From assembly GCF_000374845.1 (NCBI RefSeq), contig NZ_KB895416.1:310001-374000 (forward strand): 64,000 bases of DNA. Direction: 5' to 3'. The translations under genes and the position numbers were made by a program. Below the pieces are notes generated by a model. That model worked only from the letters and a program-made list of their open reading frames with translations, was not told the DNA's origin and did not search any database. This DNA is from Paenibacillus terrigena DSM 21567. Its GTDB lineage: Bacteria; Bacillota; Bacilli; Paenibacillales; Paenibacillaceae. Shown piece after piece: positions 4,955-14,531 of this stretch (position 1 is the first letter of the stretch; every line of letters starts with the position of its first letter).

Positions 4955-5886
4955 ATGGATGTGCATGTGTCGGTATATGGTGAGCAGCGTATGTCGATAA
5001 AATTCAAGTTTTTTCGAAGAAGAAGCGCCTCCGGCTTCAGTTTGGATATAGATCTGAAATGGGATGCTTCGCATCATTAGCAGCCGCAGAATGAATTACG
5101 TGCAAGAGGATACAGCGCGAAGACGGTTAAAGCTTATTGCGGTCAGGTCCAACGCTTCTTCGAGTATAGGAGACAGAACAATGTAAGGTGGACTGATCAT
5201 GTTGTTCGAGATTATTCCCTTTATTTATTGGATCGGTCCTGCTCCCATGCGTACGTAAACCAAGCAATTAGTGCGATCAAATTTTATTTGATCCACGTGA
5301 TGGGATACCGCGAGAATGTATCGAATGTTAGGCCTGAGAAAGAGAATAAATTGCCTTCGATTCTATCGCTGGATGAGATTATGCTTATGCTCACGACCGT
5401 CAAGAATCTGAAGCATAAAGCAATTTTCTATGTTACATATTCTTCAGGCTTACGCGTTGGTGAAGTCGTTCGATTGCGTATCGAATACTTCGATCGAGCC
5501 CGCAAAACACTGCATATTCGGCAAGGCAAAGGAAAAAAGGATTGTTACACCTTTTTGTCGGATGCAGCTTTTACAATCGTGAGCAGTACGTTCGTATAGA
5601 GAATCCAGAAGGTTGGCTATTTCCGGGTCAAGAAGCAGGACGACATCTAACCGAACGAACTGTTCAGAAAATATTCAGTCAAATGATTGGAGCTGCGGGA
5701 ATCAGGAAGTAAGTCAGTGTTCACTCGCTGAGGCATTCATTCGCTACGCATCTGCTAGAGGGCGGGATTGATATTCGCTACATTCAAGAGCTGCTGGGGC
5801 ACCAGAGCAGTCGGACAACGGAGAGGTATACGCATGTGAGCGTGAGAGATGTGAGTCGAATTAAGAGTCCGCTGGATCAGGTGTAG
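4955..5886 (+). pseudogene. Broken tyrosine recombinase (XerD/IntI-like)
   Basis: A recombinase reading frame of about 310 codons with three lesions: an in-frame TAG at 5078, a frameshift near 5570-5590, and an in-frame TAA at 5710. Core-binding domain remnants include RGYSAKTVKAYCGQVQRFF. The catalytic domain keeps YSSGLRVGEVVRL (Arg I), [15 protein letters not shown] (His-x-x-Arg), [17 protein letters not shown] (second His and the Tyr nucleophile) and ends RIKSPLDQV. The SPLD tail occurs in integron integrases and related integrases, but the extra IntI helix before the HxLRH patch is not apparent. A TATAAT box at 4928-4933 and GGAAGG precede the ATG. It points towards, and ends 91 bases before, the first cassette boundary at 5978. 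That it once moved the cassettes is inference. Confidence 0.85.
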
Positions 5887-5892
5887 GACGGT

Positions 5893-5984
5893 CGTGAATA
5901 TGGGCGTGATGCGGGGTATTCACGAAATACGTGAATTCCCTGGCTGATGGGGGATTGGGGAAGTTCGTGAAAAAGACGTTATGT
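5893..5984 (+). other. Candidate attI-like insertion site
   Basis: This is the left boundary of the array. The recombination-type core GTTATGT (5978-5984) is the exact complement of ACATAAC at the end of the first cassette (6675-6681). Upstream are four copies of the hexamer CGTGAA in 80 bases: 5893-5898 (+), 5919-5924 (-), 5930-5935 (+) and 5966-5971 (+); the middle two form an inverted repeat. Such repeated arms resemble recombinase-binding sites. The core is directly visible; a role as attI is inference. Confidence 0.5.
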
Positions 5985-6038
5985 GCAATACCCTGAAAGA
6001 TCTTTATACATTATTTTAATTAACAAGGAGACAAGTTT

Positions 6039-6626
6039 ATGATTAGAAGATTTAAAACCTCTAAAGCAGCGTTCACTTTACTAATATCATTAATTTTGCT
6101 GTTTGGAATAGTATCTGTTACTTCTGCAAGTAGTACCGATTTCATAAAAGCAAAGATTTCAAATATTAAAATTATGGTAAATAATAAATCCAGAAATATT
6201 AAAGCGAATATGCTTAATGTTAACGGTGTTAATTATGTTCCACTTAAAGAGTTTGCCAATATTTTAGGCTATACAACTGACTATAAAAATTCTACAAAGA
6301 CGATCGAAATAAATAAAAAAGAAGGGGAAGAAGATAGTCTTGTAATTGATGATAACGGAAATATTTTGAGTTTAGATGAGTGGGTTACAATTAGAGAATT
6401 GTCACTACGTTTCGGAGTGAAAATAAAATATGAAGACTCAAATGTAGTTCTCACATATAAAGAAAAAACAATAAATTTACGCCCGAGTAATGGAGCAAAT
6501 GATGATATTCCCAATTTAATAGCTGAAACAACATATAGTTCTGAAGGTATTCCATTACTTTTTGTTAAAGGAGTAATGTACTTAAAGAAAAGCGATGCAG
6601 AATTATTTATAGAACAGAAATTATAG
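6039..6626 (+). CDS. Cassette 1: secreted protein with copper-amine-oxidase-type stalk domain
   Basis: 195 aa. A signal peptide is clear: basic MIRRFKTSK, a hydrophobic stretch, then a TSAS cleavage region near residue 31. The mature part starts with the stalk-domain pattern (IKIMVNN..., VNGVNYVPLKEFANILGY), which recurs as VTIRELSLRFGVKIKYEDS; these short beta-rich repeats are common in Bacillota surface proteins. No catalytic residues are recognised. AAGGAGA supports ATG 6039. The gene sits alone in its unit, as expected for a cassette. Confidence 0.75.
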   Translation: MIRRFKTSKAAFTLLISLILLFGIVSVTSASSTDFIKAKISNIKIMVNNKSRNIKANMLNVNGVNYVPLKEFANILGYTTDYKNSTKTIEINKKEGEEDSLVIDDNGNILSLDEWVTIRELSLRFGVKIKYEDSNVVLTYKEKTINLRPSNGANDDIPNLIAETTYSSEGIPLLFVKGVMYLKKSDAELFIEQKL

Positions 6627-6674
6627 AAATGGATAAAGTTAATTGTATGATCAATTCGAGGAAGAGGGTACTGC

Positions 6675-6844
6675 ACATAACATCATATCCACGCATCGGA
6701 GCCTGACGGCTCCTCGGTCCGCCCGAAGGGGATAGGCAAGGAAGCGGAATCAGGCGGACACATCCGCACCGACTAACCGCATCGCGGCCGGCTGCTGGCG
6801 CAGCCTTAAGTCGGTGGGACGTCGTGGATACAGGAACGTTATCC
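6675..6844 (+). repeat. attC-like site 1
   Basis: 170 bases from ACATAAC to GTTATCC. The inner boxes ATCCACG and CGTGGAT pair. Between them are two further arms, GGTCCGCC...GGCGGACA and CCGACTAACC...TTAAGTCGG, so the folded strand would form a three-way junction. Confidence 0.8.
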
Positions 6845-6887
6845 GAAACCTCTGAATGTATTTATTAAATTCTTGAAAGGAGTTCTT

Positions 6888-7079
6888 ATGATAATCTTTG
6901 GATTTATTTCGGTTTATCTAATGCCATTAATAGGGTTTCTTTTTATAGTTTGCTTGCTTAGAGCTATCAAGAAAATTATAAAAGATAAATCATATACTGC
7001 CGAAGTCTTTTGGAGTGGATTTTTCTTTGCGATAATTGTGTGGACAATAAGTATGACAGTTTTAATAACAGGTAAATAA
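6888..7079 (+). CDS. Cassette 2: small membrane protein
   Basis: 63 aa with two predicted membrane helices: one near the N-terminus (IIFGFISVYLMPLIGFLF) and one near the C-terminus, separated by a short basic linker (RAIKKIIKDK). AAAGGAG at 6876-6882 sets ATG 6888. No family recognised. It is the sole ORF of the unit and lies about 150 bases before a rearranged attC. Confidence 0.6.
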   Translation: MIIFGFISVYLMPLIGFLFIVCLLRAIKKIIKDKSYTAEVFWSGFFFAIIVWTISMTVLITGK

Positions 7080-7229
7080 GACTTGATGTTACTCGCGCCA
7101 TCATGAGTAATATTGGGTAAACCCATTAGACCCCGCGTCGCTTTTATTTTAAAGTGCCAACAAGACTAATATGGGATATAACCCCATTTAAAAACTTGAA
7201 ATAATGGGCGGAATTAATTTAAGGTCTGA

Positions 7230-7453
7230 TTAAGTTCGGATTTAAGGGCAGTAGCGAACGCGACGCGGCGTAGATACGGTGTTATCCGTTGCCTCTGACT
7301 TCTTCGATAACCCTTTCAAAATAGATATTACTGCCACTTAGCCTTGCAGGGTTGTCTGCCTGACTTCACTTCTCCGAAAACCATCGGGCAGACCAAGGAC
7401 CGGCGCATGCGCGCCTTAAGCCTTTCGGGTTCGCAGATACAACAACGTTATAT
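7230..7453 (+). repeat. attC-like site 2, rearranged
   Basis: The right arm (CTTAAGCC at 7415-7422, then CGCAGATAC and GTTATAT at 7447-7453) is in normal orientation. The left arm is inverted: read on the minus strand, 7306 down to about 7255 is CGAAGAAGTCAGAGGC, GGATAAC, ATCTACG, as at normal left ends. The central hairpin at about 7331-7400 is inverted too. GGATAAC matches the start of cassette 2 (GTTATCC at 6838) with 15 of 18 bases complementary, so this is one scrambled attC rather than two. The stretch 7090-7230 has no gene and no clear feature. Confidence 0.6.
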
Positions 7454-7460
7454 GAAATCG

Positions 7461-8039
7461 ATGTTAAAGGAGAAAGAGGAGAGTTCTATTAAACGTTCAT
7501 TAAAATTACTTCTTATTCTAATGACTATTTATATAATCTTTTTAATTCCCAATCTATTTTCTTGGTATGAAATGGAAAAGTTTGAAAGTAAAATAAATAC
7601 TGCGCTTGGGAATTTTTTAACTTCGCAATGTAAAACTAACGTTCACATCGATTGGGTCAAAATTCATAACATACCAACTGGATTTTTAACAATAGGAAAA
7701 GACTCACAAGAATGGAATGCGCAGGTTACTATTAATTCCAATTATACTTATCCCATTGAAGGAAGTGTAGACGGTAGTTTTCATTTTTATTTTCATGAAG
7801 AATTTTGTGGAAAAAATTATCATTCAGATAAAATTGGATATAAGAGTTTAGATTTGAAAAATAAAACATTTGTAGATGAATATGACCAAAGTTCAAAGAC
7901 GGGGGATATTGGTCTTAAAGAATCAAACATAATTTTATTAACGTTCTTCTTTGGCTTGATAATTATCGTTTTTATTATATCAGCAACAATTGAATTGTTC
8001 ACAAATCTAATAAAAATATATAAAAGAAAGAATGAATAG
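7461..8039 (+). CDS. Cassette 3: membrane protein with an extracytoplasmic central domain
   Basis: Up to 192 aa: an N-terminal membrane helix (LKLLLILMTIYIIFLIP), about 110 mostly soluble residues with two cysteines, and a C-terminal helix (ILLTFFFGLIIIVFIIS). The start is uncertain. ATG 7452 and 7461 have no good ribosome binding site, whereas AAAGGAG/AGAGGAGAG at 7465-7483 lies just before an in-frame ATT at 7488, which would be a rare start. The layout resembles the cassette 9 product, so the two may be distant relatives. Function unknown. Confidence 0.65.
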   Translation: MLKEKEESSIKRSLKLLLILMTIYIIFLIPNLFSWYEMEKFESKINTALGNFLTSQCKTNVHIDWVKIHNIPTGFLTIGKDSQEWNAQVTINSNYTYPIEGSVDGSFHFYFHEEFCGKNYHSDKIGYKSLDLKNKTFVDEYDQSSKTGDIGLKESNIILLTFFFGLIIIVFIISATIELFTNLIKIYKRKNE

Positions 8040-8070
8040 TTTGTGAGTAACTCAAGATGGCATCGACATC

Positions 8071-8232
8071 ATATAACACCATATCTACGCCATGTCGCGT
8101 TCGCTCCTTGGTCTGCCGAGGAGTTTTCGAAGAAGCTTAATCAGCATACAACCCTGCAAGGCAAAGTGGCAAAGCCACCCGGCTCGGTCGCGCCTTAAGC
8201 CTCTCGGGTTCGTAGATACAACAACGTTAGCT
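8071..8232 (+). repeat. attC-like site 3
   Basis: 162 bases from ATATAAC to GTTAGCT. ATATAAC complements GTTATAT at 7447. Inner boxes ATCTACG/CGTAGAT pair; the arms TTGGTCTGCC and AGGC...GCCTTAAGCC are present. Confidence 0.85.
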
Positions 8233-8276
8233 GAAATCAACGAAATTGTAATGGAAAATCGAAAGGAATATAAAAA

Positions 8277-8738
8277 ATGAATCTAATCCGCATAGAACCA
8301 ATTGATAAAAATAACTGGGAAGAAGCTCACTCGATATCTTTACTCAAATCACAAGAGAAGCTTGTACCTTCTGTTATCGAATCTTTAGCATGGGCTTATA
8401 TAAAACCGTGGGATGAGGCCTTTGATCCATATATTTTGTGCAAGGATGATAAAACATTCGGATTTTTTTATCTTTCCTATACACCTAATAGTACGAATAA
8501 TTACTGGATTGGTGGTTTTCAAATAGACAAGGAATATCAAGGGATGGGATTAGGAATACAATCTCTTAAAAGAATATTAGAATTCATTCAGGAAATGCAC
8601 AGACAATGCGAAGTAATCTCTCTAACAATCGAAAAAAGTAATAATCATGCTAGAAAGCTTTACGAGAAATTAGGATTTGTCAATCAAGATAAAGAGAACC
8701 AAGATGGCGAGATTATATATAAACTAAAGTTAAAATAA
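8277..8738 (+). CDS. Cassette 4: GNAT family N-acetyltransferase
   Basis: 153 aa. The acetyl-CoA loop is QGMGLG in the segment IDKEYQGMGLGIQSLKRIL (about residues 82-100), preceded by the motif A strand (YWIGGFQ), and the C-terminal NNHARKLYEKLGF motif is complete. Length and pattern resemble diamine/spermidine or small-molecule acetyltransferases; the substrate is unknown. GAAAGGA upstream supports ATG 8277. Acetyltransferases are classic integron cargo, and a second, different GNAT gene is in cassette 10. Confidence 0.85.
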   Translation: MNLIRIEPIDKNNWEEAHSISLLKSQEKLVPSVIESLAWAYIKPWDEAFDPYILCKDDKTFGFFYLSYTPNSTNNYWIGGFQIDKEYQGMGLGIQSLKRILEFIQEMHRQCEVISLTIEKSNNHARKLYEKLGFVNQDKENQDGEIIYKLKLK

Positions 8739-8787
8739 ACTATAAAGAACTTGTTGTACTAGGTTACTCGAAGAGGTCGTTGACATC

Positions 8788-8947
8788 AGCTAACATTACA
8801 TTCCTGCGTCATCGCTAACGCTCCTCGGTCACCGAGAGGATTTTCGGAGAAGTTAAATCAGGCGACACATCCAACCGGCTAAGTCTGACGACCCGGCAAC
8901 TTTGTTGCCTTAAGCCGTTTGGACGTCAGGAATGCGAAACGTTAGAC
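8788..8947 (+). repeat. attC-like site 4
   Basis: 160 bases from AGCTAAC to GTTAGAC. AGCTAAC complements GTTAGCT at 8226. The inner boxes have changed together to ATTCCTG/CAGGAAT. Confidence 0.85.
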
Positions 8948-8983
8948 GAAATTCTTAAATAAGATAACAAAGGAAGGGAAAAT

Positions 8984-10384
8984 ATGTTCAAAAATAATTA
9001 TGAAATATTAGAAAGTCTTACTTTTTTCTTTGATATCAATGAATTTGAAAAAGCTGACATTAGAATTCATGATAAGCAAATCTTTCTACTTGAAGATATG
9101 TTAGCGCTTATACTAAGAATTTCTACCGAAGAACTGTTGTCGATGACAGTTAAAAACATAGTAGAAGGAAAAATAAATATAAATGATCATCTTAGGTACT
9201 ATGCTTGGTACGGCAGTAGTGGGGGGAAATTATATAAACTTATTGGAGATAAAGTCACACTTTATAAAAGAAATTCTGAGCCAACTTTAGAAGATGATCA
9301 ATTAAAATTAATATTCTCGCACGAGGCAATTGATATTTTGATGGATGATTTTAATTATAACATTAAAAATCAATTTTTTAGTTATTGTGATGAAGTGATC
9401 AGAAGGGCGAACCAATATAATAGCTACCTACAATTTATTGTTGCAGGAACAGATGAGAGTATTTCGATGCTTGAATTTAATAGCAGCTATAGTACTTTTA
9501 TTATGAGTATGCCTGAACATAACATTTTTCTGAGAGAAAATTGGAATATATCTGATGTTTTTCATTATGACACGAGATTTAAAAAATCTATTTTGCCAGA
9601 GTACAAGGTAGTTTCTCTAATATCAAGTGTTAGGGTTGGCGAAATAGATGATGTGAAAAACAAAGAAGGACAGATTGAGAATAACTATATTCATGAGCTG
9701 TTATTTAAACAAGACGTAGAGGAACTTCTTCATAAATTTAAATTAATTAGGTTAGTTACTACTGCTCCAATTTACTGTACGGAAATAATGACTCAATTTA
9801 AGTATACCTTCATAGGGATTCCTCAATATCTCCAACCACCTCAGATCACTAAAACAAATGAAGCGATTTATAAATTTAATAATATTAATGCTGAATTAAT
9901 TAATTCAGTATTTAATGAATTTTCCTTGCCTATTGATAATGAAGTATTAAATTTGCTTCTTGTCAATTATGATTATTCATTTTATGTACCGGACGATGTA
10001 GCAATATTAATTCTAGTAAGTTGTTTGGAAATTATTTATCATCCTGGAGATAAAGATGAATTAAAGTTCCGGATAGCTAGGAATGCTACAATATTTTTAG
10101 GAACAAACGAAGAAGAAAGCACTTTATTATTTGATGAGATAAAAAAGTTGTATGATATAAGATCATCATTAGTACACACTGGGAAATTCAATCTCTCAAA
10201 ATATAGATATTCAAATAAAGAAGAAGTAATTTATCGATTAAAGAAAATAGTAAGTACTTCAATTCTAAAATATAAAAATGAAATAGTAGATAATAATGTG
10301 ACTAAAACAGAGTTTTTTGATCAATTAAATAAATCTGGATTTGGTGATTATCCGTTTAACAGTTACAAAGTAAACTTATTTTAG
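8984..10384 (+). CDS. Cassette 5: large protein with a C-terminal HEPN-type motif
   Basis: 466 aa, the largest cassette ORF. The last ~120 residues contain a helical region with RSSLVH (Arg393 to His398), the R-x4-H motif of HEPN ribonucleases, in a context (YDIRSSLVHTGKF) like the C-terminal domain of ApeA-type proteins. The first ~300 residues are not recognised. HEPN proteins often act in phage defence or toxin systems by cutting RNA; a defence role here is inference. AAGGAAGGG upstream fixes ATG 8984. Coding sequence is markedly AT-rich. No partner antitoxin gene is present in the unit. Confidence 0.7.
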   Translation: MFKNNYEILESLTFFFDINEFEKADIRIHDKQIFLLEDMLALILRISTEELLSMTVKNIVEGKININDHLRYYAWYGSSGGKLYKLIGDKVTLYKRNSEPTLEDDQLKLIFSHEAIDILMDDFNYNIKNQFFSYCDEVIRRANQYNSYLQFIVAGTDESISMLEFNSSYSTFIMSMPEHNIFLRENWNISDVFHYDTRFKKSILPEYKVVSLISSVRVGEIDDVKNKEGQIENNYIHELLFKQDVEELLHKFKLIRLVTTAPIYCTEIMTQFKYTFIGIPQYLQPPQITKTNEAIYKFNNINAELINSVFNEFSLPIDNEVLNLLLVNYDYSFYVPDDVAILILVSCLEIIYHPGDKDELKFRIARNATIFLGTNEEESTLLFDEIKKLYDIRSSLVHTGKFNLSKYRYSNKEEVIYRLKKIVSTSILKYKNEIVDNNVTKTEFFDQLNKSGFGDYPFNSYKVNLF

Positions 10385-10431
10385 GAATTGTTATAAGCAT
10401 GACGTCGTAACCTATATCAAAGAAGAACTTC

Positions 10432-10552
10432 GTCTAACATAATATTCATGCATCAGGCATCCGCCCTCGGTCCGGCAGAGGGATTTCAGAAAGTTAGGCG
10501 TAGCCGGACACATCCGACTAAGTCGGACATCATGAATACAGGAACGTTAGAA
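10432..10552 (+). repeat. attC-like site 5 (short form)
   Basis: 121 bases from GTCTAAC to GTTAGAA, the shortest site. GTCTAAC complements GTTAGAC at 8941. Inner boxes ATTCATG/CATGAAT pair. The second internal arm is shorter than in other sites. Confidence 0.8.
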
Positions 10553-10590
10553 GAAATACCCGAATAAATTAATAAATGAGTGAGATGAAA

Positions 10591-11022
10591 ATGCAGTGGA
10601 GCAAATTAAAAAAACGAATTGAAAGTAACTTTTGTGAAGAATTACAAGATAGAGTTACTTTATTTAGCACTTGGTATAAGCAAGGTGGAAGTCCTGGAAA
10701 AGGAAGAGCTGCAGTATTATTGGATAAAACCGAGATTTACGAAGCTAATACTGATAAGTGGTTAATGAATAAACAAGAAACGAATGATAATATTTTAATA
10801 GAAAGATTTGAATTTCATAAATTACTGGAAGAATATTCGAGTTGTTCTATTGAAGAATTGTTAGTATCTAAGCACGAATTAATTCGAGGACTAGCAATAA
10901 TTGATAAGAGAGTAGGGAAACGCACGCTAATAAATATGAACAAACTTGAAGGTGAATTCATGAAGAAATTATATAAAGTAAGATGCGAAATTGAAGGAAT
11001 AAGTATAAAGGACACTATCTAA
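10591..11022 (+). CDS. Cassette 6: SF0329 family protein of unknown function
   Basis: 143 aa from ATG 10591, chosen because the family begins MQWSKLKKR; in-frame ATGs at 10576 and 10585 would add five or two residues, and no start has a strong ribosome binding site. The N-terminal pattern (MQWSKLKKRIES, DRVTLFSTWY, DKTEIYEANT) matches the small SF0329 family as I remember it. The C-terminus is helical and charged. No enzyme motif is seen and the family function is not known to me. Confidence 0.6.
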   Translation: MQWSKLKKRIESNFCEELQDRVTLFSTWYKQGGSPGKGRAAVLLDKTEIYEANTDKWLMNKQETNDNILIERFEFHKLLEEYSSCSIEELLVSKHELIRGLAIIDKRVGKRTLINMNKLEGEFMKKLYKVRCEIEGISIKDTI

Positions 11023-11047
11023 GTAGATTCAAGAAGTCGGGTACATC

Positions 11048-11206
11048 ATCTAATATCATATCTACGCTGCGGCCTGATGCCCTTCGTCTGCAAGAAGAAT
11101 TTCGAAGAAGCAAAGTCAGCAGACAACCCTGCACTGCCTAACCGCATCGCGGCCGGGACTACGTCCCTTAAGGCAGTGAGGGTTCGTAGATACATAAACG
11201 TTATGA
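11048..11206 (+). repeat. attC-like site 6
   Basis: 159 bases from ATCTAAT to GTTATGA. The 5' box differs from the expected TTCTAAC at two positions, but bases further out (TCGGGTA) exactly complement TACCCGA at the start of cassette 6. Inner boxes ATCTACG/CGTAGAT pair. Confidence 0.8.
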
Positions 11207-11237
11207 GAAATATGACAAATAGAAAGAAGCGATTATC

Positions 11238-11978
11238 TTGAATGAAATAATGCAATTAATAGAAAAGCTCTCTTGGGATGCTCCGGATGAAGAAAAATCA
11301 AATGCTAAGATACAACTAAAAGAGATTAATGATAAAGATCTTCATTTTTTAGTGCAGCCCTTAACTAAAGGACATTGGGACGGAGCTGCAGAAGTAATCG
11401 TTAGCTTAGGCTATCCAAGGGTACAGAGGATCCTTCCAGGATTACTTGAATGGATACAAGATTTGAACTGGCCAGGTGCAATGGTAATTGCAGACTTTTT
11501 AAAAACAATTGGCAGTCCACTAATTCCTTTTATAAGAGATGTTTTACAACAACATTCAGACGATGATGTTTGGATAGGATGGATATTTTCTCAAATTATT
11601 AATGAATGGTCTACAGAACATATAACTCAATTAAAAGAAGAATTAATTCTGATTTCACAAAGAAGAGATAATGATATCGAAGCATCGAGATTATTATTAA
11701 ATCACAAGTTATTATCAAAACAAGAAATATTATCGAAATTAGAAGAGAAGAAAAACAATACGGAACTAGAACTTCACGAACTTATTGAACAGTATCCAAA
11801 TGTAGATTGCGAAAAGCTTAATCGTGAATTTCGTGATCTTATTTTCAAACCAAATTTATCTAAAGATTTTTATGAGCGCAATTTGGAACAATTTTCTTTT
11901 TGCAATAAGACATCCTATTTGAGAGAGTACTTGAATGATATTGATAGTTTTGTCGAGGAAGTGTCATACTTCGCATAA
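11238..11978 (+). CDS. Cassette 7: DUF5071 domain protein
   Basis: 246 aa. Residues ~30-135 carry the DUF5071 pattern (ILPGLLEWIQDLNWPGA, then IPFIRDVLQQHSDDDVWIGW), a repeat-like helical domain of unknown role; the C-terminal ~100 residues are helical and unassigned. The start is TTG 11238 with a weak AAGAAG site, or ATG 11250. The TAA stop (11976-11978) lies inside the attC box GCATAAC, so gene and recombination site are fused as closely as possible. Confidence 0.65.
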   Translation: MNEIMQLIEKLSWDAPDEEKSNAKIQLKEINDKDLHFLVQPLTKGHWDGAAEVIVSLGYPRVQRILPGLLEWIQDLNWPGAMVIADFLKTIGSPLIPFIRDVLQQHSDDDVWIGWIFSQIINEWSTEHITQLKEELILISQRRDNDIEASRLLLNHKLLSKQEILSKLEEKKNNTELELHELIEQYPNVDCEKLNREFRDLIFKPNLSKDFYERNLEQFSFCNKTSYLREYLNDIDSFVEEVSYFA

Positions 11979-12135
11979 CACCATATCTACGCTGAGTCGC
12001 TATGCTCCTTGGTCTGCCGAGGATTTTTCGAGGAAGAGTAATCAGCAGACAACCCATGCAAGGCAAGTGGCGAAGCCACCCAGTCGCTGACGCTCCTTTA
12101 AGCCTTTCGGGTTCGTAGATACAAGAACGTTATCT
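11973..12135 (+). repeat. attC-like site 7
   Basis: 163 bases from GCATAAC to GTTATCT. GCATAAC matches the complement of GTTATGA at 11200 with one mismatch; the outer TGTCATA matches fully. Inner boxes ATCTACG/CGTAGAT pair. Confidence 0.85.
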
Positions 12136-12179
12136 GAAATACGACAAGTGCTGAATTAATTTTTTTGGAGGTAAGGGCA

Positions 12180-12533
12180 ATGAAGCAATTGAATTTAAGT
12201 ACAATTATTAGTTCTTTTATATTAGGTATTTCAATTGTTATTAGTGGCTTGATTATTAGTAATTCTGAACAGAAAGAGGTAAGAATAAATGAAAAGCATC
12301 AAAAGGAATACAAGCCATTAATGACAATTAAAGAAACATCTGAATACCTGAATTTAAGTGAACTGCAAGTTAAAACGATCATATCAAGTGAAGAAACCAT
12401 GTTAAGAGCCTCGGGTTCATATACTGGCATGATGTTACCCATTATTAGAATTGGGACCGATATTTATATAAGTACAGATGAATTAAAGGAATGGATAAAA
12501 CAGTCAACAACAGAGAGAAAACAATATCAGTGA
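12180..12533 (+). CDS. Cassette 8: membrane-anchored excisionase-type HTH protein
   Basis: 117 aa. An N-terminal membrane helix (IISSFILGISIVISGLII, residues ~8-25) is followed by a short linker and an excisionase/MerR-like winged-helix pattern: LMTIKETSEYLNLSELQVK and, after a turn, IYISTDELKEWIKQS. GGAGGTAAGGG sets ATG 12180. DNA-binding domains tethered to the membrane are uncommon; alternatively the domain may bind something other than DNA. Sole ORF of its unit. Confidence 0.6.
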   Translation: MKQLNLSTIISSFILGISIVISGLIISNSEQKEVRINEKHQKEYKPLMTIKETSEYLNLSELQVKTIISSEETMLRASGSYTGMMLPIIRIGTDIYISTDELKEWIKQSTTERKQYQ

Positions 12534-12560
12534 TAGTATTTTCGAAGAAGGTCGTACTTC

Positions 12561-12775
12561 AGATAACATCGTTTTCCTGCATCGCAGCTTACGCTGCTCG
12601 GTCCGCCCGAAGAGAGAAGAAATTCATTACGAAGTTGTTTCAGAAGCAAGGAAGTAAATTCAGGCGGACATATCTGCAAGGCTAAGTGGCAGAGCCACCC
12701 GGCGAGAATGAATTGCTTCGCAATATTTATTTAGCAGCTTAAGCCTTACGACATCAGGAAACACAAACGTTAGAG
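12561..12775 (+). repeat. attC-like site 8 (long form)
   Basis: 215 bases from AGATAAC to GTTAGAG, with longer internal arms than other sites. AGATAAC complements GTTATCT at 12129. Inner boxes TTTCCTG/CAGGAAA are a further co-varied pair. Confidence 0.85.
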
Positions 12776-12800
12776 GAAATTAACGAAAGAAGGGGAGAAT

Positions 12801-13340
12801 ATAAAAAATAAATATACTATAGTCATCTTATTCTTTTTTATATTTTTAATAGTTTTAACTTCGCCAGTATCTATAAAAGCTATTAATAGCTTTGTACAAA
12901 CCGAAAGAATTGCGAAGGATGTTGAAGAAGCAATAAATGCATACTTTAAAGCTAATTGTAAACCACCAATACTAATTCGAAATCTGTGGATAAAGAAACA
13001 TGATTTTCGTATTGGTGGTCCTGAATTTTATTACGGATTTGAATATAATTATGAAGGACTATGGAGAGAATATAGCGATCCTGCAGGTGGTGAAGACTAT
13101 ATTTATATATCATTATCAAACCAAATTAACTGTATTAAGAACGACAATAAACTAGTTTATGATGATACTGAAAAAAGAATAGTTATAGAAGATGAAAATA
13201 AAAATTATGATATTAATGTATGGATATGGGGTAGCTTTGAGAGAGGTTTGTTATTAATTTATTCTGGGTTTATTTTTATTATTGATCTATTAATATCTAT
13301 TATTTGGGCAGTTGTTATTTTCGTGAAAGCAAAAAAGTGA
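12801..13340 (+). CDS. Cassette 9: membrane protein with ATA start
   Basis: A 179-codon open frame with no ATG, GTG or TTG near its start. AAGGGGAG at 12790-12797 is followed by ATA at 12801, the likely initiation codon. The product has an N-terminal membrane helix (TIVILFFFIFLIVLT), about 110 soluble residues with two cysteines (motif YYGFEYNYEGLWREY), and a C-terminal helix (LLIYSGFIFIIDLLISIIW). The layout matches the cassette 3 product. Function unknown. The open frame is sequence fact; the ATA start is inference. It would be missed by gene finders that require standard starts. Confidence 0.65.
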   Translation: MKNKYTIVILFFFIFLIVLTSPVSIKAINSFVQTERIAKDVEEAINAYFKANCKPPILIRNLWIKKHDFRIGGPEFYYGFEYNYEGLWREYSDPAGGEDYIYISLSNQINCIKNDNKLVYDDTEKRIVIEDENKNYDINVWIWGSFERGLLLIYSGFIFIIDLLISIIWAVVIFVKAKK

Positions 13341-13368
13341 TTAGTGATTCGAAGAAGTCGTTAACTTC

Positions 13369-13526
13369 CTCTAACACCGTATCTACGCTGCGGGCTACAC
13401 CCTTGGTTCGCAAGGAGAGATGGCAGAGAAGTGGAATCAGCTCACAACCCTGCGAGGCTAAGTCCGTTGGACCCGGCGCGTATGCGCCTTAAGCCTCTCG
13501 GGTTCGTAGATACAAGAACGTTATCT
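13369..13526 (+). repeat. attC-like site 9
   Basis: 158 bases from CTCTAAC to GTTATCT. CTCTAAC complements GTTAGAG at 12769, and 17 of 18 bases pair when the arms are extended. Inner boxes ATCTACG/CGTAGAT pair. Confidence 0.88.
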
Positions 13527-13577
13527 GAAATAACTTGAAACTCAACACATATATAAAACAAAGGTGGTAACACTTTA

Positions 13578-14057
13578 ATGAATTATAAATTAATTCAAGC
13601 TTCTAAAAAATATGAAGATATCATAAGAAACCTAATGCAATTTTATATTTATGATTTCTCTGAATTTGTAAAATGTGATGTAGAAGATGATGGATTATTT
13701 GGAGCATATCCATATTTGGAAGAGTATTGGAAAGAAGTTAATCATCGATTTCCATATGTCATTAAGCAAGAAGATAAGTATATAGGTTTTGTGTTAGTAA
13801 GATTTATTGAATCAGAAGAGCGGAATTACTACTCGATTGCGGAGTTTTTTATTATGAAGAAATATAGAAAAGAAGGAATAGGTAAAGCAGTAGCAAAACA
13901 AATATTTGATTTACATAAGGGGCAGTGGGAAGTTTATCAATTAGAAAGCAACAAACCAGCTCAGGTATTTTGGAATAAGGTCATAAATGAATACACGCAA
14001 GGTGAATTTAAAGATCGGATTGAAAATAGTAGAAAGATACAAGATTTTAATAGCTAA
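13578..14057 (+). CDS. Cassette 10: GNAT family N-acetyltransferase
   Basis: 159 aa. Motif A is seen as YSIAEFFIMKKYRKEGIGKAVA (KxGxG-type acetyl-CoA loop, residues ~92-110), followed by WEVYQLESNKPAQVFWNKVI, typical of the subgroup that has NxxAxxFW near the C-terminus. AAGGTGGT precedes ATG 13578. Substrate unknown. A truncated relative lies at 22395-22634 and another C-terminal fragment at 45013-45198. Confidence 0.85.
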   Translation: MNYKLIQASKKYEDIIRNLMQFYIYDFSEFVKCDVEDDGLFGAYPYLEEYWKEVNHRFPYVIKQEDKYIGFVLVRFIESEERNYYSIAEFFIMKKYRKEGIGKAVAKQIFDLHKGQWEVYQLESNKPAQVFWNKVINEYTQGEFKDRIENSRKIQDFNS

Positions 14058-14079
14058 ATCAAAGAAGTCATGTTACATC

Positions 14080-14226
14080 AGATAACACCGTTTTCCAGCT
14101 GCGTCGCTTTCGCTCCTTGGTCTGCCCGATGCATTTCGAGACAACCCTGCGTGGCTAAGTGGCGAAGCCACCCAATCGCTACGCTCCTTAAAGCCTCTCA
14201 GGTTCGTAGATACAAGAACGTTATCA
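14080..14226 (+). repeat. attC-like site 10, chimeric
   Basis: 147 bases from AGATAAC to GTTATCA. AGATAAC complements GTTATCT at 13520. The left inner box (TTTCCAG) is of the site 8 type, while the right one (CGTAGAT) is of the site 3/6/7/9 type, so they do not pair. Internal arms are present. Confidence 0.75.
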
Positions 14227-14531
14227 TGGTGCTTTTTTGTGGGCTAATTTAAGCATGCTTCCTTTTTACCAGCCAATCACAGTCAAGATTTAGTAAGTTT
14301 AAGGCTTCAGAACTCCAATGAATGCGGCCTAACCAACTAAATCGGGGTATGAATTCTTAACCCAGTGCTAATCTTTTAAGCATAAAAGAAAAAGCTCATC
14401 CCCGATTGATTGGGATGAGCTTAATATACCAACACCATGTTCACGCATCGGGCTTCCACACTTACTAACCGCATTGCGGTCGGCACCTGACTGTGCATTA
14501 AGTCGGTGGGACGTCGTGATTTGTATTACGT
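14227..14531 (+). other. Decayed right end of the array, no gene
   Basis: After the last clear boundary there is no ORF. 14271-14322 is about 83% identical to 22666-22717 (43 of 52 bases by eye). 14428-14531 is an attC remnant: AACACCATGTTCACGCATC, an arm TAACCGCATTGCGGTCGG, then TTAAGTCGGTGGGACGTCGTGA, very like the right half of site 1 but without a good terminal box. Confidence 0.55.
14391..14422 (-). terminator. Rho-independent terminator of the YheO-like gene
   Basis: Stem AAGCTCATCCC/GGGATGAGCTT; on the minus strand it is followed by TTTTTCTTTT. It lies beyond the attC remnant, which is therefore transcribed with the regulator. Confidence 0.75.

Follow-up and report, generated by a model that had tools for sequence, protein, structure and literature searches.

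An integron-like gene cassette array in Paenibacillus terrigena and its non-IntI tyrosine recombinase family in Bacillota

Paenibacillus terrigena DSM 21567 carries an integron-like array of ten gene cassettes, which we studied in a 64,000-nucleotide stretch of its draft genome of 40 contigs (the window; G000:C5:310001-374000). The array itself is real. We consider it highly probable that it consists of mobile gene cassettes of an integron-like Bacillota system, one that would combine a tyrosine recombinase other than IntI with a fixed attI-like site and with cassette sites that fold as bottom strands. Sequence comparisons support the integron-like interpretation put forward in an earlier sequence-only reading of this DNA, which missed that the recombinase gene upstream is broken and belongs to a non-IntI family, and that the system is widespread. 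The system is integron-like in its working, but its integrase sets it apart from integrons proper.

The ten units span positions 5978-14219 of the window, and a last core at 14220 closes the array. Every unit opens with GTTA and three variable bases, in most cases followed by GAAAT; the starts lie at 5978, 6838, 7447, 8226, 8941, 10546, 11200, 12129, 12769, and 13520. Nine units close with a long imperfect palindrome, and the site of the second unit is partly inverted. Re-analysis of the window confirmed the ten units, the nine palindromes, the rearranged site and their coordinates, with site lengths of 121-215 bp as had been given before. A site model built from seven window sites recovered the two that were kept out as a test, c5 at 1.2e-14 and c8 at 1.9e-15. 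Rfam at its own cut-offs gave no match in the window, and promoter and terminator patterns there showed no excess over chance.

Our analysis of end complementarity starts from a simple expectation: in a unit that once existed as a circle, the two ends would have lain side by side and folded onto each other. In the window, the first 17 bases of each of the ten units complement the unit's own end up to the R'' box with 1-4 mismatches, one of which always falls at position 11. Own-unit pairing over positions 5-22 scored 124, compared with 111 for the best of 200,000 permutations and 64 for pairing of a site with the start of the next unit. A larger set of 203 units comprised eight from the window and the rest from 19 relatives (of an initial set of 20, L056 was left out), taking only neighbouring sites at most 4000 bases apart. 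Here, 6.85 of eight variable positions matched at the own end, 3.07 at the neighbour and 2.71 at random; seven or eight positions matched in 150 units, and four or fewer in 18. Own-end pairing thus exceeds neighbour pairing both in the window and in the 203 units, in line with the earlier proposal that the units were closed as circles and inserted in succession. That proposal had counted six units with perfectly complementary seven-base end boxes. The principle stands and the count does not: eight of the ten units have such boxes, if the inverted arm of unit 2 is counted, and units 6 and 7 differ.

For comparison, we used 12 class 1 cassettes from two plasmid arrays, whose ends were picked by the best seven-base match, so that only the bases beyond it are informative. 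Complementarity extended to 12-13 bases in five cassettes, to 8-9 in four and to about 12 with two mismatches in one, with two ends uncertain; positions 13-17 were at chance (0.25) across all 12. We therefore rejected complementarity beyond seven bases as a property unique to the new site type. The control points to a longer outer stem, not to a wholly new principle: in the new sites the stem measures about 17 bases, position 11 being always mismatched, against at most 12-13 in class 1.

Comparisons between genomes indicate that whole units have moved. Cassette 3 has a copy at a different place in another species of the genus (G001), 96% identical over 795 bases, with similarity ending at the cores; this copy stands in first position, directly behind an attI-like site. 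The gene neighbouring the array is only 65% identical between the window and G001, against 96% for cassette 3. At the place in G001 that corresponds to the window array, two upstream neighbours are kept (89% and 65%), followed by two sites and no integrase, and none of the ten window cassette proteins is present. In another genome (G002), the neighbour gene is present and no site lies in its vicinity. The same units in the same order among related strains, which the sequence-only reading had named as an outcome that would speak against it, were thus not seen between species. A copy of cassette 7 (96%) stands in a different array of the window's own genome, and one cassette was found in six relatives at 80-97.5% in differing positions. 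Nine further aligned pairs had unit identities of 0.93-0.98 (six pairs) or 0.78-0.88 (three pairs), with 250-base flanks at 0.52-0.65 in all; similarity begins at GTTA in eight of the nine and ends after GTTA in seven. The exceptions are L041/L044, where the shared stretch begins off the core, and L039/L046, whose units end in different sites. Unit-wise movement with breaks at the core, as in integrons, is therefore visible by sequence comparison.

Upstream of the array and in the same direction as the cassettes lies a tyrosine recombinase gene (5087-5880, + strand), broken by a frameshift and an in-frame stop into pieces at 5087-5566 and 5638-5880; its best homologue is 61% identical. These pieces are the best integrase_gron matches in the window's genome, and they fall below the cut-off. 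A search of this 40-contig draft at 1e-10 found no second copy, and the first piece matched only itself. Given the broken gene and the failure to find another copy, the window array is probably frozen unless it receives outside help. In relatives, a homologue precedes an array in the same direction in 36 of 44 Paenibacillaceae loci, which were drawn from 79 named loci (the remaining 35 come from outside the family); the eight loci without sites have 2-766 bases after the gene. Of the 260 sites in these 44 loci, 258 share the strand of the integrase. The flank preceding the integrase holds none of them; in L117, one site overlaps with a broken integrase at its 3' end. Around four other recombinases encoded in the window's genome, six loci were without a site. 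In L070 / L047 (Saccharibacillus endophyticus), two opposite-strand sites lie inside the array, possibly as an inverted cassette pair.

Between the broken gene and the first cassette is the attI-like site (5960-5981, + strand), whose final bases are the first core GTTA and which agrees with GAAGTTCGTAAATAAGACGTTA at 20 of 22 positions. Such a 22-mer follows the integrase with at least 17 of 22 positions matching in 29 of 42 Paenibacillaceae loci, compared with at most 15 in 83 control windows; one of the 29, L070, is without GTTA. As with the attI of integrons, the site is conserved next to the integrase while the first cassettes differ.

The recombinase of the array is not IntI. Its family scores 203 bits against TIGR02249, below the cut-off of 265, and lacks the IntI insert of about 40 residues (also called the additional domain, patch or helix I2). 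Accordingly, two anchor motifs are 58-61 residues apart in the 38 parsable of 42 new rows and 100 apart in the six parsable of 16 IntI rows, and residues 176-238 of the IntI structure 2a3v have no counterpart. As a positive control, TIGR02249 exceeded its cut-off in 50 of 150 Gemmatimonadota genomes; beside IntI in 11 Gemmatimonadota loci, simple rules applied to one side recognised no classical array (flanks of 12 loci). In the tree, the 16 IntI rows form one clade with support of 100/99 that excludes the new recombinase rows, and two other distant rows are interspersed with the latter. An additional N-terminal domain of about 80-90 residues marks the new family; its fold may weakly resemble the branched-DNA-binding domains of UvsW, XPB, and HARP. 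In IntI integrons, the integrase gene is commonly transcribed away from the array, whereas the new integrase runs in the direction of the array both in the window and in the loci of relatives. SOS control by LexA, described as common among integrons in the accessible part of PMC8876359, has little counterpart here: with one pattern tried, a LexA-like box was found for only one of 53 new integrases and in none of 159 control windows.

The sequence-only reading had held that sites of 121-215 bp with three-way folds differ from those of class 1 integrons, and covariation bears out the three-way fold. Among the 150 best of 284 matches, in an alignment that had itself been fitted to the model, 94.9% of cells are paired, and 604 cells carry double changes against 157 in shuffles. 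In computed folding, the bottom strand is more stable than the top strand in 170 of 202 circle-form sites, and position 11 pairs as G-T on the bottom strand and as A-C on the top strand in 183 of 203 units. Folding of sites as single strands in their array context gave mixed results, with z of -0.45 for c3 and -3.42 for c9. Predicted stability favours the circle form over the array form in 186 of 202 sites, with a mean difference of 7.1 kcal/mol, which suggests that entry of a circle would have a better substrate than exit from the array. From these models, the folded bottom strand is likely to be the substrate of the recombinase.

We propose that a non-IntI tyrosine recombinase, encoded upstream in the same direction as the cassettes and followed by a fixed attI-like site, would release cassettes as circles and let them enter one by one at GTTA cores. 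Its substrate would be the single bottom strand of the cassette site, folded into a three-way hairpin with an outer stem of about 17 pairs in the circle form. More tentatively, the N-terminal domain, with its possible likeness to DNA-binding domains of UvsW, XPB, and HARP, might do the job of IntI helix I2. A wider proposition, for which we see even chances, is that a second recombinase lineage came to recombine folded single-stranded sites without the IntI helix, through an added N-terminal DNA-binding domain and a longer outer stem, and thereby built large Bacillota arrays that integron searches missed because they required the IntI insert.

Other explanations would place the array elsewhere. 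Were it a true IntI integron with its integrase at another place or lost, and the broken recombinase unrelated, the shared site logic with class 1 would follow directly, including own-end complementarity of 12-13 bases in 5 of 12 control cassettes. We judge this very improbable, however, as TIGR02249 exceeds its cut-off nowhere in the window's genome, relatives of the broken gene directly precede arrays in dozens of loci, and the attI-like site is anchored to genes of that very family. It is also unlikely that the recombinase acts on double-stranded cores, as Xer and phage integrases do, with the hairpins serving, for example, to end transcription; this would leave unexplained why a unit's start complements its own end, and likewise the compensatory changes and the strand bias.

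If the palindromes were ordinary dispersed repeats lined up by chance, this could account for sites in as many as 302 of 394 genomes of the family, and for 9 of 48 matches in the window's genome that are single or paired (150 of 759 candidates were scored, and the rearranged site counts as two matches). The other 39 matches lie in clusters of three or more, so that the palindromes are not mainly outside arrays, single and scattered, an outcome that the sequence-only reading had listed as speaking against an array. Own-end complementarity, unit-precise copies and a fixed orientation after the integrase also run counter to dispersed repeats, which we hold to be scarcely credible here.

The system that we favour, mobile cassettes with a non-IntI recombinase, has much in common with IntI integrons, both class 1 and chromosomal. 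It shares with them an attI site and a same-strand array of mostly one-gene cassettes, many of them GNAT genes, bounded by folded attC-like recombination sites whose GTT core has a complementary R''. It differs in an integrase that is co-directional with the array, lies outside the IntI clade and lacks the insert, and in the three-way folds and 121-215 bp length of the window sites. Clusters of attC sites without integrase (CALIN, a term used in the accessible part of PMC9024848) resemble the window array, which has no working integrase, but many of its relatives have an intact integrase adjacent. The Xer-type family NF040815 (site-specific tyrosine recombinase/integron integrase) shares the catalytic fold, and L039 scores 225.3 against its cut-off of 220; the new recombinase is distinguished by its N-terminal domain and by its tight link to cassette arrays.

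According to the available text of PMC9024848, Firmicutes are nearly integron-free, with a single complete integron (in Limnochorda) and a small number of CALINs. Integrons are noted as absent from Firmicutes in the accessible sections of PMC2426708, which also mention a search requiring the IntI patch; such a search would miss the new system. Firmicutes are listed among integron-bearing phyla in the available portion of PMC8618304. Xer proteins are described as being without the I2 domain, and the extra IntI helix as the step to single-strand recombination, in the part of PMC7790495 at hand. Our literature search, with preprints and most subscription journals outside its scope, did not turn up any account of such arrays from Paenibacillus or Clostridia; an earlier description is possible.

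Within Paenibacillaceae the system is widespread, and it extends to Clostridia. The sequence-only reading had proposed that a custom site model be run over Bacillota genomes, and our seven-site model found sites in 302 of 394 Paenibacillaceae genomes (seven best candidates scored per genome) and in 27 of 250 genomes at class level, 18 of them in Paenibacillaceae (at least 22 members searched) and nine in other families. Homologues of the recombinase at 1e-20 occur in 139 of the 394 Paenibacillaceae genomes, and 37 of 398 genomes sampled over the whole phylum Bacillota have the recombinase family at E 1e-70. A model-free scan for end complementarity covered 31 of the 35 non-Paenibacillaceae loci and gave 40 pairs downstream of the recombinase, in 14 loci, one pair upstream (L140) and none in five shuffles of each locus. 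The pairs were mostly in Clostridia; loci labelled Bacteroidales, Treponema, and Rhizobium had only two, one, and one, respectively. On a Chryseobacterium plasmid (L156), a homologue with 38% identity precedes three pairs whose ends are identical. None of 144 matched phage records and 7 of 842 plasmid records cover 80% of the recombinase. In the plasmid L156 (NZ_CP041688.1, 8974-18960), the full-length homologue is followed by same-strand genes with identical repeated ends, and the region also holds a group II intron gene in the opposite direction and repeated Crp/Fnr regulator genes.

A forward open reading frame (ORF) of at least 60 residues is present in 183 of the 203 units, and the longest ORF runs backwards in 28. 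Among 99 cassette proteins scanned (seven from the window and 92 chosen from a random 110 of relatives), 12 matched GNAT acetyltransferases, five NUDIX proteins, and four methyltransferases, with single matches to an immunity protein and, in the defence library, to a DRT reverse transcriptase. Among the A9 cassette proteins, single ones match the DRT reverse transcriptase Drt8 (2.3e-145), a nuclease of the Old family, and a Cas12f/TnpB-like protein. In L043 (3009-7889), a cassette run is built of the same internal repeat of about 59 bases in varying copy number.

All ten window cassettes are on the + strand, and the earlier description of one + strand ORF per unit holds, with unit 9 having no ATG, GTG, or TTG start after the core. 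Cassette 1 (5978-6837, ORF 6039-6626) matches a copper amine oxidase N-terminal domain, and its site c1 (6675-6844, + strand) was located by in-window site analysis and a site-model match. Cassette 2 (6838-7446) has a small ORF at about 6888-7079 without a Pfam match. Its rearranged site c2 (7250-7453) is partly inverted, with the R'' arm inverted at 7281 and site-model (R1) matches at 7315-7457 on the + strand and 7309-7402 on the - strand; the inverted internal piece may lock this cassette. Cassette 3 (7447-8225, ORF 7452-8039) has no Pfam match, and its copy in G001 lies at L155:4991-5784. There, L155 4960-7050 holds an attI-like site, with no recombinase homologue known in the genome, then the cassette 3 copy, and then ORFs that read as NUDIX-like and GNAT-like. 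Cassettes 4 (8226-8940, ORF 8277-8738) and 10 (13520-14219, ORF 13578-14057) encode GNAT acetyltransferases, cassette 5 (8941-10545, ORF 8984-10384) has no Pfam match, and cassette 6 (10546-11199, ORF 10576-11022) belongs to the SF0329 family. Cassette 7 (11200-12128, ORF 11238-11978) matches DUF5071, and its copy in the other array lies at L152:5799. A weak match to HTH_17, below the cut-off, was seen in cassette 8 (12129-12768, ORF about 12180-12533), and cassette 9 (12769-13519, ORF about 12801-13340) has no Pfam match; the proteins of cassettes 3 and 9 showed no convincing relationship (E 0.57). The site model matches c3 (8071-8232), c4 (8788-8947), c6 (11048-11206), c7 (11973-12135), c9 (13369-13526), and c10 at the array end (14080-14226), and the two held-out sites are the short c5 (10432-10552) and the long c8 (12561-12775), all on the + strand. 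Past the array end, the sequence at window positions 14429-14530 looks like a degenerate portion of an attC-like site (81% to c1 over 64 bases).

These results suggest a second, overlooked gene-capturing system in bacteria thought to be nearly without integrons. If confirmed, cassette capture would be common in a Bacillota group in which integron-like sites occur in 302 of 394 genomes of a single large family. It would also offer a natural second experiment on the extra helix of IntI as the step to single-strand recombination, a role set out in the available part of PMC7790495.

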